The position numbers and the translations under genes were made by a program. This document shows, piece by piece, positions 9,565-40,013 of a stretch of 64,000 bases of DNA (position 1 is its first letter; each line of letters begins with the position of its first letter). Origin of the DNA: Endomicrobiales bacterium (GTDB lineage: Bacteria; Elusimicrobiota; Endomicrobiia; Endomicrobiales; JAFGIL01); assembly GCA_016929635.1 (NCBI GenBank), contig JAFGIL010000072.1, forward strand, positions 31,622 through 95,621, in the 5' to 3' direction. The notes below the pieces were generated by a model. That model ran no database searches. It saw nothing but the letters and a program-made list of their open reading frames with translations, and was not told the DNA's origin.

Positions 9565-11661
9565 CTATTTACCCGCTAATCTATTTTCGGCTAACTTTAA
9601 ATATTTCTTCGCATCAGCATGTTCCGGATTTAGCTCTAAAACTATTTTGAGCTCTTCAACCACTTTGTTCCAGTTACTCATATGCCAATACAAAACAGCC
9701 AGATTAAAATGCGTTTGAACGCTCTCATAGTCCAACTGCAATGCTTTCTGATAAAAATCCATTGCCTTGTTTAAATCATTTTTCAACTCATAGATAGCAC
9801 CTAAATTTGTATAAACCTCGGTGTTTGGCCTTGATTTTAAATAGTACGCTTCCGCCATGTTCAACAATCCGTTTTTGTGATATAAGAATCCGACTGTTTG
9901 TGCCCATCTGCGAGATTTATCGTACGAAACAAGGCCTTTGAAGTACAAATCCGCATAAGGCATATCTTTTACAGTAAGGCAGTATTTACCCATCAGATGA
10001 AAATAGGAAAAAAGTAAATTCAGCGATCTTTTATCCATCTGGTTATAATCAGGGATTCTCAATGAATAAATATAAGGATATATATTCTTTTTTTCCGCCT
10101 CACTGTTGTCTACTTTGTATATCAAACCTTCCTGAAAACGCGGTATGTCAATCATCTGAGGTTCAAATGTAGCGTAATATACAGGCCTCCTGGTACCTTG
10201 AATAATAGCCGTCTCGATTTTTTCCCTTATTGCCAGCCTAGGTTTGCCCCATATACGGTAATAATCATCCCCGTAAATACTTCTTGATACTCCTGCATTG
10301 CAGTCAACAAAGCTTATATCAGGACGCTTTCTTTCAGACATATGCAGATAGGCAATTGCAAACTCCATCTCATCAGCCCTGTCGGAAAACATAATTGAGC
10401 CCTGCGGCAGAGTACGCAGGATGTTCTTTCCGTAATCATAAAATATAAACTCATTTCTATGATTCAAAGAGCCTATGTTCTGGAAAAATAAAACCACAGG
10501 AATAACAAAGACAAAATTTGAAACGTATTTAGGCAATTTCTTCAACGCTTTCGATATAATCAGGATAACAAAAATAAACGGCAAAAAGAAAAATCTTTTC
10601 AGGAGAGCACTGCTTGAAGGATCCAATGTAACATTAGCCAGGATTAAAAATCCGGGCCCTGTACCTATAAGTAGCAGCAGCAAAATCAAGCTAGATTGCT
10701 TCGTCACTTCGTTCCTCGCAATGACGGACTTTTTAATGTCATTGCGAGTCCCGCCAAGCGGGACGAAGCAATCTCTTTTCATTAAGTTATTCATTATCTC
10801 TTTTAAGCAAAACCACATCCCCAGAATAAAAAGAAGAATACCTGCCCAGGTAAAATTTTCCTTTATTACCTGCAGGAAAAAATAGAGTTTCTTTAATATA
10901 ACTGGAACCGACAGAGGAGGTGCACCCCCCTGTGCAAGAGCTATACTCCCGTAACGAAGCCTGGCTATCACCTGCCAGAACCTTTTTAATGTCTCGGGGT
11001 CTTCCCAGTCAAAAACAGGCTGTGATTTTGAACGTACATATAAAAATAGTGTTATTGAAAATCCAAGGATACTAAAAAGAACAATATTAGTTAAATGGTA
11101 TTTCCAATTACTTCTTAGTTCAACTTTATATTGACTTAAGAACCACCACAACAACCCCAACCCAAGCAATCCTAAAGTATAATGAGTAGTCAGTGAAATA
11201 AACAGCAGGTAGACAACAAGAATGTATTTATTTTTAATTGGTTTACTATAAATCAACCAGCAAATTATGCATCCCATAAAAGCAGCAAGTCCGTACACTT
11301 CCGTAGTATTAGCCATTGCCCATACAACATTGGAAAACGCATACATCAGACCGGCAGATAAGCTGATTAAAATGTTTTCGGTCATTTCAAGGATTACGCA
11401 AAAAAGAATAACACTGGCCAACGCTATGAAAACGCTTGAAAGCAAATTTATCCTGTATGCGTTATTCCCGAACGGAACTAATGTTACAAACATCTTTCCA
11501 ACAATACTGTACAAAGGGTATCCGGGAGAATGGGCTATGCCCAGCGTTGTACCCACACCTGCCAGCTCCCCTGAATCGTCACCTGTAATACAGGGAACCG
11601 CGGTAAACAAATAAACTGCAAAGGTCAGAAATAGAATTAGTACTGCTATGAATTTATTCAA
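9565..11661 (-). CDS. DUF2723 family protein with C-terminal TPRs, carrying an in-frame palindromic insertion
   Basis: ITGDDSGELAGVGTTLGIAHSPGYPLYSIVGKMF motif and TPRs. Start codon appears to be TTG. Contains the 10693..10774 palindrome. Confidence 0.75.
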   Translation of the reverse strand: MNKFIAVLILFLTFAVYLFTAVPCITGDDSGELAGVGTTLGIAHSPGYPLYSIVGKMFVTLVPFGNNAYRINLLSSVFIALASVILFCVILEMTENILISLSAGLMYAFSNVVWAMANTTEVYGLAAFMGCIICWLIYSKPIKNKYILVVYLLFISLTTHYTLGLLGLGLLWWFLSQYKVELRSNWKYHLTNIVLFSILGFSITLFLYVRSKSQPVFDWEDPETLKRFWQVIARLRYGSIALAQGGAPPLSVPVILKKLYFFLQVIKENFTWAGILLFILGMWFCLKEIMNNLMKRDCFVPLGGTRNDIKKSVIARNEVTKQSSLILLLLLIGTGPGFLILANVTLDPSSSALLKRFFFLPFIFVILIISKALKKLPKYVSNFVFVIPVVLFFQNIGSLNHRNEFIFYDYGKNILRTLPQGSIMFSDRADEMEFAIAYLHMSERKRPDISFVDCNAGVSRSIYGDDYYRIWGKPRLAIREKIETAIIQGTRRPVYYATFEPQMIDIPRFQEGLIYKVDNSEAEKKNIYPYIYSLRIPDYNQMDKRSLNLLFSYFHLMGKYCLTVKDMPYADLYFKGLVSYDKSRRWAQTVGFLYHKNGLLNMAEAYYLKSRPNTEVYTNLGAIYELKNDLNKAMDFYQKALQLDYESVQTHFNLAVLYWHMSNWNKVVEELKIVLELNPEHADAKKYLKLAENRLAGK
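10693..10774. repeat. Imperfect palindromic repeat element within a CDS
   Basis: AGATTGCTTCGTCACTTCGTTCCTCGCAATGACGG / TCATTGCGAGTCCCGCCAAGCGGGACGAAGCAATCT inverted repeat, translated in frame as roughly RDCFVPLGGTRNDIKKSVIARNEVTKQSS. Confidence 0.85.
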
Positions 11662-11701: not shown

Positions 11702-11818
11702 TGTTACAATTGTAGTGTAGGCCTTTATGGCAGTAATAATGAAAAACTTTATCGATATAGTGATATAATATTTTTACGCCCACAAGGGGCTACACTACAA
11801 AAAACATTAATTGTAACA
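11702..11818. repeat. Intergenic inverted-repeat element, copy 1
   Basis: Outer arms TGTTACAATT/AATTGTAACA; inner arms TGTAGTGTAGGCCTTTATGG / CCCACAAGGGGCTACACTACA. Core shared with 39934..40013. Confidence 0.8.
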
Positions 11819-14802: not shown

Positions 14803-16899
14803 TTACCCCTTTCGTCCAATTTTTTCCTGTGCCTTCTGCAAATAGTATTTCGCACGGGCATCATCAGGTTTTATCTTCAAAATTATATTCAGATTTTTTA
14901 TTACTTCTTCCCAGTTTTCCTCTTTCCAATAGATAACAGCCAAATTAAAGTAAGCGTCCAGGTACTGCGGATTCACTTTCAGCGCCCTGTCATAATATTG
15001 TTTTGCTTTTTCAAGATTGTTTTCCTTCTCTTCTATCACGCCCATGTTGACATAAGAGGATATTTCATCCGGATATAACTCTATTATTTTATTATAAACG
15101 TCTTTTGCTTGGCTTAATAATCCCGCCTGAAAATATTTAAATGCATAATGTATTAATTCGTGCTTTAAATTTGTATTCAGCCATATTACTTCAGGCCAGC
15201 GTTTATGAGCATACTCCCAAAACTCTACTGATTCATCACTGTAATGATATGCTGCAAAATAAGGATAAACCGGAACAAGCGCCCTGCTCCTGTAATCGTA
15301 GTATTCCGCACCCCAGACGCTTCTTAGAGAATATACATGCCATGCGTTAATAGAATCATCCGGTTTATTTTTATCCGGATATATTGCCCTGTACAGCATA
15401 CCGTCAAGTGCAAGATTAATACCGGGCAATATATCTTTATTAAAAGTTGAATAGTACAAAGGTTTTTTGCCCAGGAATTCCTTTTCCACCTGATTTCGCC
15501 TTTTTTCCTTATCTTCCTTGCCTATCCTTCTAAAATCTTCTCCATAAATATTCTTAAATACAAGCCCGCCCCTGTCATGCAGCTCAATGTCTCTGCGGTG
15601 ATTTTCGGCAAAGCAGAGATATGCGGTACTGTAAAAGGTGTCATCCCCCCCATCCATAAAAAACACCGAGTTGGGTTTTAAAGTTCTTAGTATATTTCTA
15701 CCGTAATCATATGCAAGGTAATAGTCTCTCCAGTTTATCGTTGAAAACCTGCCTTTTATTGTAATTACTATAAATAACGAAAATATTGCCAGCAATACAA
15801 CTGACTTTACCTTGCTTTTTGCTATTGAAATAATCCAATCCAGGCTCCAAAAAACAGGGAATATCCAAAATAAATTAATAAGTATAAAAAACCTTTCCAG
15901 TATTCCTTCTGTCTGGCTGTCAAAAGGCATGTTTGCCAGTAAAATGAAACCCGGCCCTGCCAATAGCCATAATAAAAATATAGATCGGGATAACTTATAT
16001 TTTTCCTTTATACCGATAAACCAACCAGCTATACCCAAGAATACTCCCACTGCAGTGTATTGATGCATTAATATGTTAAATAACCGGGTAATTTGTTTTA
16101 TTATAATCGAAATGCTAAAACCCATTTTCTCACCGACAGTTAAAGAAAGGCTGCCGTAGTCAGCACGTGATATAACCCTCCAGATATTCCTGACTGTCTC
16201 CGGATTGCTCCAGTCAAGCGCAGGATTTTTATATGAACGAATAGGCAGGTAAGCATATATCGAAAATCCCAGCATAAAAAAGATTAATAACTTCAGCAAA
16301 TAACCGGCTGAATATAGTCTTTTTCTTATTATTTCCACTATTAACAAAGGCGTTAAGAAAATGAGCGTATGATGATTCCCAAATCCCAGCCCGAACAAAT
16401 AAGAAGCAAGAAGGTAATGTTCTTTATTAACTGATAATAAGATTAAGACTGCAAATAAAGTATTTAAAGTAAAGACTTCAGCACTTATAGAGGATCGCCA
16501 AAAAGCATCCGTGCAGGCGAATAATATCACAACCAAAGCTGCGCCTAAATGCTGGTGCCACCATATGACTGGCTTTTCGATGTCATTGCGAGCTGAAGGC
16601 GAAGCAATCTCATCATTGAATTTCCTATTCATTAAACCAATTAATAAATAATAAAGTATTAAAACAGAAAGCGAGGCCAAAACAGCACTCATTAAATTAA
16701 TCCTGAACGCAAAACTGCCCCATGGTATCAATATGGTCGCTAATTTCCCCATCAGGCAATACAGAGGATATGACGGGCTGTGAGGCAATCCGAGGATAAC
16801 GCTTGATGCACAGAATTCCCCGGAGTCACCTACTGTAATAGAAGGTGCAAGCGTGTAAAGATATAAAACAAATGTCGATAAAAATATTAGCATCTGCAT
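14803..16899 (-). CDS. DUF2723 family protein with C-terminal TPRs
   Basis: ITVGDSGEFCASSVILGLPHSPSYPLYCLMGKLA motif, polytopic, TPR C-terminus. Confidence 0.75.
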   Translation of the reverse strand: MQMLIFLSTFVLYLYTLAPSITVGDSGEFCASSVILGLPHSPSYPLYCLMGKLATILIPWGSFAFRINLMSAVLASLSVLILYYLLIGLMNRKFNDEIASPSARNDIEKPVIWWHQHLGAALVVILFACTDAFWRSSISAEVFTLNTLFAVLILLSVNKEHYLLASYLFGLGFGNHHTLIFLTPLLIVEIIRKRLYSAGYLLKLLIFFMLGFSIYAYLPIRSYKNPALDWSNPETVRNIWRVISRADYGSLSLTVGEKMGFSISIIIKQITRLFNILMHQYTAVGVFLGIAGWFIGIKEKYKLSRSIFLLWLLAGPGFILLANMPFDSQTEGILERFFILINLFWIFPVFWSLDWIISIAKSKVKSVVLLAIFSLFIVITIKGRFSTINWRDYYLAYDYGRNILRTLKPNSVFFMDGGDDTFYSTAYLCFAENHRRDIELHDRGGLVFKNIYGEDFRRIGKEDKEKRRNQVEKEFLGKKPLYYSTFNKDILPGINLALDGMLYRAIYPDKNKPDDSINAWHVYSLRSVWGAEYYDYRSRALVPVYPYFAAYHYSDESVEFWEYAHKRWPEVIWLNTNLKHELIHYAFKYFQAGLLSQAKDVYNKIIELYPDEISSYVNMGVIEEKENNLEKAKQYYDRALKVNPQYLDAYFNLAVIYWKEENWEEVIKNLNIILKIKPDDARAKYYLQKAQEKIGRKG
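16582..16610. repeat. Half-copy of the GTCATTGCGAG...GAAGCAATCT palindromic element inside a CDS
   Basis: GTCATTGCGAGCTGAAGGCGAAGCAATCT, in-frame peptide EIASPSARND. Related to one arm of 10693..10774. Confidence 0.7.
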
Positions 16900-39916: not shown

Positions 39917-39933
39917 TTTACTCTAAGGAATTC

Positions 39934-40013
39934 TTTGTATTGTAGGCCTTTACGGGCGTAAAAAATATTTTACTATTACGGCCACAAGGGCCTACACTAC
40001 AAAAAAATACAAA
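39934..40013. repeat. Intergenic inverted-repeat element, copy 2
   Basis: TTTGTATTGTAGGCCTTTACGGGCGTAA ... TTACGGCCACAAGGGCCTACACTACAAAAAAATACAAA, between rbfA and nrnA. Confidence 0.8.

Follow-up and report, generated by a model that had tools for sequence, protein, structure and literature searches.

Palindromic repeats of the CGTC type (CGTC-REPs) were defined by Di Nocera et al. (2013; PMC3733652), who described them for Neisseria, Azospirillum lipoferum, Sinorhizobium and Sphingobium and assigned the Rickettsia repeats RPE-4 and RPE-6 and the Neisseria repeat dRS3 to them. Copies located within genes encode 20-30 residues. The same survey stated that CGTC-REPs 'apparently lack a dedicated transposase': they were never found beside RAYTs, and the few found beside other transposases were considered fortuitous. 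REPs of the GTAG type are linked to RAYTs (PMC3733652). The most relevant of the later papers citing this survey name no enzyme for CGTC-REPs. The GIY-YIG domain is characteristic of homing endonucleases, and the 2006 survey of this domain (PMC1564403) makes no mention of palindromes.

Analysis of the window (the whole 64,000-nucleotide stretch of DNA examined here) revealed an 82 bp element, AGATTGCTTCGTC...GACGAAGCAATCT, between 10693 and 10774 that consisted of two repeat units forming a nearly perfect inverted pair. The first unit (10693-10725, minus strand; AGATTGCTTCGTCACTTCGTTCCTCGCAATGAC in reverse orientation) forms one hairpin arm and is followed by a 12 nt spacer, GGACTTTTTAAT (10726-10737). 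The second unit (10738-10774, plus strand) reads GTCATTGCGAG-TCCCGC/CAA/GCGGGA-CGAAGCAATCT and contains its own inner hairpin. The folding energy of the element was -42 kcal/mol, with a z-score of -7.7 on one strand and -6.7 on the other, and none of 200 shuffled sequences equalled it. The sequence matched the preliminary description, which had reported an inverted repeat of approximately 82 bp translated in frame.

The element lies within an ORF on the minus strand (9565-11661) whose translation and profile matches identified it as a TMEM260-like/DUF2723 membrane protein of 698 amino acids with C-terminal TPRs. It is read as RDCFVPLGGTRNDIKKSVIARNEVTKQSS, residues 296-324, between two transmembrane helices. 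This protein and its paralog encoded between 14803 and 16899 (minus strand; identified in the same way) belong to Pfam family PF11028, now named TMEM260-like. Profile matches of the 9565-11661 protein to its homologs were interrupted exactly at the element peptide. None of the 30 homologs in the alignment had this peptide; those from 15 other genomes and the two in-window paralogs could be aligned through the region without it. The preliminary description had proposed a clean protein-level insertion that orthologs carrying the same peptide would contradict; the alignment bore out the insertion and contained no such ortholog. Relative to the nearest ortholog (G001, approximately 51-55% identical) the net gain was about 30 residues, and two homologs (G086 and G089) had longer loops of unrelated sequence at this position. 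The in-window paralogs (7428, 14803), said at the outset to be without the stretch, do lack it at that place, but the 14803 paralog has a truncated in-frame copy of its own (16565-16610) at a different place. This second copy comprises one complete unit (16582-16610) and what is left of its partner (16565-16569), and its peptide, EIASPSARNDIEKPVI, starts at residue 97. The window therefore contains two members of one gene family, each with an in-frame copy of the element. A third probable in-frame unit pair, open on both sides, was located in another ORF (L002, G000:C58, 539-609 and about 780-860); the same ORF also has a different in-frame direct repeat (ACGAGATACGAAATACGC-like). In a DUF2723 homolog (L044, in G096), the loop that bears the insertion in the 14803 paralog contains a repeat-like insert of another kind, PKSEVRSQTTRHWTLDIGHW, which suggests that this loop tolerates inserts.

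Each repeat unit had the form GTC-ATTGC-GAG-(inner hairpin)-CGAA-GCAAT-CT. An exact-pattern count across the genome, one of the checks proposed with the preliminary description, gave 28 units in 2.23 Mb, mostly intergenic, and further copies of the element were also recovered by BLAST. The reversed control pattern gave zero matches in all 100 genomes. As regards the in-frame share, there were two clear cases and one likely case (L002), the remainder being intergenic or at ORF edges. The outer stem, ATTGC/GCAAT, was invariant in 16 aligned units. An alignment of 38-nt units from two related genomes, G019 and G057, showed that each of the five inner-stem pairs had, in some of the sequences, changed at both of its positions. 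Of the inner hairpin cells, 99.4% were paired, with 22 compensatory double-change cells compared to 5.3 in shuffles. Sliding the partner positions abolished this signal. The units kept 4.4 of six reading frames open compared to 4.0 in shuffles, which is not strong evidence that they are built for tolerance within ORFs. As this excess is slight, in-frame survival probably reflects selection among random insertions.

The GTC tag was present in every unit, and in 28 tag-outside pairs it was preceded by C (54%) or T (39%). Over all loci, 28 pairs had their tags outside (HH type) and 10 had them inside (TT type). The focal pair is of the TT type, as are about half of the pairs in the window genome, and spacers resembling GGACTTTTTAAT were found in other tag-inside copies (window 16570-16581, L002 and L005). 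In G001, the abutting units between two tandem nuclease cassettes, described below (L091, 2051-2119), form a tag-inside pair resembling the focal element, hinting that such pairs may arise as cassette junctions. Target-site duplications, a mark of classical MITEs that the preliminary description had also suggested looking for, were not detected: the 28 + 10 elements showed neither a duplication nor a target motif, and direct repeats at their ends did not exceed chance in this small sample. The window gave no match to Rfam, and no NCBIfam family matched the repeat peptide. A second, unrelated palindrome family, TTGTAGTGTAGGCC...GGGGCTACACTACAA, is present in the window at 11705-11806 and 39928-40010 (z -5.8 and -7.8).

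The window genome contained one intact cassette in which such units surround a small GIY-YIG ORF (L007, G000:C3:20045-20332; region 20.0-20.4 kb). The encoded protein, of roughly 96 amino acids, matched PF01541 with 59 bits (cut-off 22.6), and its nearest solved structure by sequence was UPF0213 protein BH0048 (1zg2); NCBIfam has no model for the subfamily. The catalytic positions were almost invariant among 166 sequences (E66 in 166/166, Y19 in 164/165, R29 in 164/166 and N85 in 164/164), indicating that the gene has been kept functional. Related genomes had the same cassette architecture, two in tandem in G001 (L091) and one each in G053, G037 and G007, and simple cassettes measured 358-546 bp.

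Querying the GTDB collection with eight of the partner proteins returned 80 loci from many phyla. These were scored for GTCATTGCGA heads within 300 bp of the gene, allowing one mismatch and requiring plus orientation upstream and minus orientation downstream. Correctly oriented heads were found upstream at 62 loci, downstream at 63 and on both sides at 58 of the 80. The density of heads was 5.6/kb near the gene and 0.33/kb far from it at the same loci, a 17-fold difference. Many flanking REPs that were visible by eye escaped a strict hairpin detector, which was set aside for a motif-free test, in which the upstream sequence was compared with the reverse complement of the downstream sequence, with displaced stretches as the control and the 98th percentile as the threshold. 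This test was passed by 50 of 82 loci in the GTDB set, 18 of 28 in alphaproteobacteria, 9 of 11 on plasmids, and 14/21 and 11/16 within the same phylum. YhbQ-type GIY-YIG control genes passed in 0/10 and 1/6 cases, and about one third of the nuclease loci fell below this strict inverted-repeat threshold. The GIY-YIG subfamily is bracketed by inverted units across at least 14 phyla. At one locus, on a Planktothrix agardhii plasmid (L229), the GIY-YIG gene was flanked on one side by a gene for a type IIL restriction enzyme and on the other by drmA, which encodes the DISARM helicase.

A tblastn search of plasmid records revealed GIY-YIG genes in Neisseria, Azospirillum lipoferum, Sinorhizobium and Sphingobium. 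The same enzyme lies here between copies of the CGTC-REP form native to the host: CGTCATCCCCGCGAAGGCGGGGATCCAG in Azospirillum, CGTCATCCTCGGGCTTGACCCGAGGATCCA in Shinella and Sinorhizobium, CGTCACCCCGGGCTTGACCCGGGGTCCC in Sphingobium, and CGTCATTCCCGC...GCGGGAATCC in Neisseria and Aeromonas. The Novosphingobium enzyme was likewise bracketed by another CGTC-REP stem. A clear bracketing pair was absent from two of the 12 loci inspected, those of Rhizobium K1/93 and Photobacterium. Further stems, nearly all starting GTCAT, were found in the phylum of the window itself. When stem type (ATTGC or other) was mapped on the enzyme tree, 10 changes were required, compared to a mean of 28.8 and a minimum of 23 with shuffled labels. 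The ATTGC hosts on this tree belong to 14 named phyla, many of them represented by metagenome bins, and the small number of stem changes in spite of this spread argues that enzyme and palindrome travel together.

Units and nuclease also co-occurred between genomes. Units were present in 23 of 35 genomes with the nuclease and 15 of 65 without it (Mann-Whitney on unit number, 100 genomes, p = 1.3e-6, kinship ignored); with one genus of small genomes excluded, the figures were 23/27 and 13/31 (p = 0.001, kinship again ignored). Twelve nuclease-bearing genomes had no ATTGC unit, some of which have other stems. G057 contained 94 units in dense mixed REP clusters and no nuclease of this clade; as its assembly is 86% complete, the gene has either been lost or lies in the missing part. 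As REPs cluster in hypervariable intergenic regions, some of the co-location could reflect shared residence.

Comparison of related plasmids showed that the cassette is present at some sites and absent from the same sites elsewhere. In A. lipoferum it is located between sufB and sufC, a position at which A. ramasamyi, A. oryzae and strain B510 (approximately 96% identity) lack it. The corresponding sufB-sufC gap of Shinella PSBB067 is occupied by a cassette that is independent of this one. Two Shinella plasmids carry a cassette that three related plasmids with conserved flanks do not. The whole cassette was missing in the empty-site alignments (Azospirillum, Sinorhizobium and Shinella), whose intergenic flanks were too diverged for boundaries to be placed at the level of single bases, and the empty site of Sinorhizobium K101 itself contains a REP.

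The best reading of the focal 82 bp insert is that it is a non-autonomous derivative of a mobile cassette driven by the GIY-YIG nuclease. In our judgement the insert, a pair of CGTC-tagged REP-type units, is probably non-autonomous, its autonomous form being the nuclease cassette of about 360-550 bp. The comparisons show the association of units and nuclease gene; we infer recognition of the units by the nuclease, the position of the cut, the completion of insertion and the catalysis of movement. The nuclease would recognise the GTC-tagged hairpin in extruded or single-stranded form, for instance while the lagging strand is being synthesised, and would cut at the foot of the unit hairpin. Either a unit pair, once released or copied, or the entire cassette might then be placed elsewhere by break repair or strand transfer, with pairs lacking the gene being mobilised in trans. 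Within genes, only those copies would persist that are in frame and lie where an insert is tolerated, for example in a loop between transmembrane helices.

The palindromes might instead owe their movement to a tyrosine transposase of the RAYT/IS200 type or to some other transposase unrelated to the nuclease, the GIY-YIG gene being a passenger in REP-rich DNA or having been captured once between units. In MITEs, passenger genes are often present between the repeats, and the genome encodes seven Y1 transposases. A driver of this kind would also fit the link between GTAG-type REPs and RAYTs. We nevertheless regard it as unlikely: none of the five Y1 loci examined in the genome had units nearby, leaving a Y1/RAYT driver there without support, and in the 2013 survey CGTC repeats were found beside no RAYT and only fortuitously, in a few cases, beside other transposases (PMC3733652). 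Moreover, the same GIY-YIG subfamily, and not the YhbQ type, is bracketed by different stems in many phyla, which repeated capture of a passenger does not explain. It is similarly improbable, if not slightly more so, that the nuclease is a self-spreading homing-type or repair enzyme whose palindromes are regulatory or protective ends (terminators or mRNA stabilisers), with the solitary pairs being relics of deletion. The strong folding of the units and the frequent occurrence of GIY-YIG domains in homing endonucleases (PMC1564403) agree with such a role, and solitary pairs could be cassettes without their gene; however, solitary units greatly exceed nuclease genes (28 to 1 in the window genome and 383 to 1 in G007). 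The tag-inside pairs also share a common spacer that is absent between cassette units, which gives them the appearance of a separate replicating form. That 10693-10774 is an ancestral membrane-protein loop, palindromic by chance, would fit its reading frame and its plausible inter-helix position but has a negligible probability and is refuted by the ortholog alignment, since the stretch is absent from 30 homologs, its unit occurs at 28 places in the genome and the reversed pattern was found in none of 100 genomes.

The observation that is new is a distinct GIY-YIG subfamily bracketed by CGTC-type units. A literature search linking GIY-YIG with REP, dRS3, palindromic elements or inverted repeats, its scope excluding most subscription journals and preprints, found no earlier report; this does not prove priority. 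Searching the literature for the repeat sequence itself yielded nothing informative. Palindromes of the CGTC type occur dispersed in genomes from Neisseria to Rickettsia, where they add peptides to proteins, and a compact, conserved nuclease located between such units in many phyla is a concrete, testable candidate for their enzyme. On balance we favour, with less assurance than our reading of the insert, the wider proposal that this nuclease is the dedicated enzyme long missing for the CGTC-REP superfamily as a whole, with dRS3 and RPE-4/6 included; these repeats would then be bacteria-wide miniature mobile elements moved without any known transposase fold. If so, the system would parallel RAYT/REP systems while having been assembled independently, with GIY-YIG chemistry used for mobility without introns or reverse transcriptase, and it would make it simple to annotate many hypothetical peptides that lack an explanation, as well as many genes labelled 'GIY-YIG nuclease family'.

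Among described systems, RPE-1 and other in-frame inserts resemble the focal element in being palindromic inserts read as a tolerated peptide, although RPE-1 is found in a different host and has a different, shorter sequence. The RPE-like palindromic insertion originally suspected was supported, and the likeness goes further than first proposed, the unit having the GTC tag and the AT-starting stem of CGTC-REPs; its link to Rickettsia RPE-4 and RPE-6 extends no further than the CGTC superfamily in which PMC3733652 places them, and the unit is not itself a Rickettsia element. RAYT/REP cassettes (REPtrons) and REPINs share the arrangement of one small nuclease gene between inverted palindromes, with many pairs lacking the gene elsewhere. 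They differ in having a GTAG tag and a tyrosine (HUH) transposase where CGTC and a GIY-YIG nuclease are found here; the window unit has neither the GTAG tag nor the adjoining RAYT gene by which RAYT-linked REPs are recognised, its tag being GTC. The partner nuclease shares the GIY-YIG fold and catalytic residues with GIY-YIG homing endonucleases and with small UPF0213/YhbQ-type proteins, but it differs from the YhbQ type in forming a distinct subfamily (GFTK.Y / REKQ.K / W.DLY) with a single GIY-YIG domain and in being bracketed by REP units. CGTC-REPs are recognised by a CGTC (or TGTC/CCTC) tag at one end of the palindrome, as is present in the window unit. Both have GTC at one end, usually preceded by C or T, a stem starting AT, inverted dimers and some copies inside ORFs, where they encode 20-30 residues. 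Families 1-4 of the CGTC-REPs have an 8-9 bp stem and a 4-5 nt loop, whereas the window unit has a 5-bp outer stem and a separate inner hairpin that varies freely with compensating changes; the unit is therefore similar to CGTC-REPs in form and working, yet falls outside the four families described. CGTC-REP dimers mostly have their tags outside (HH), whereas the focal copy is of the TT type described as rare. Finally, a dedicated enzyme was reported to be lacking for the CGTC-REPs of the 2013 survey, whereas the repeats of the type found in the window are linked to one.
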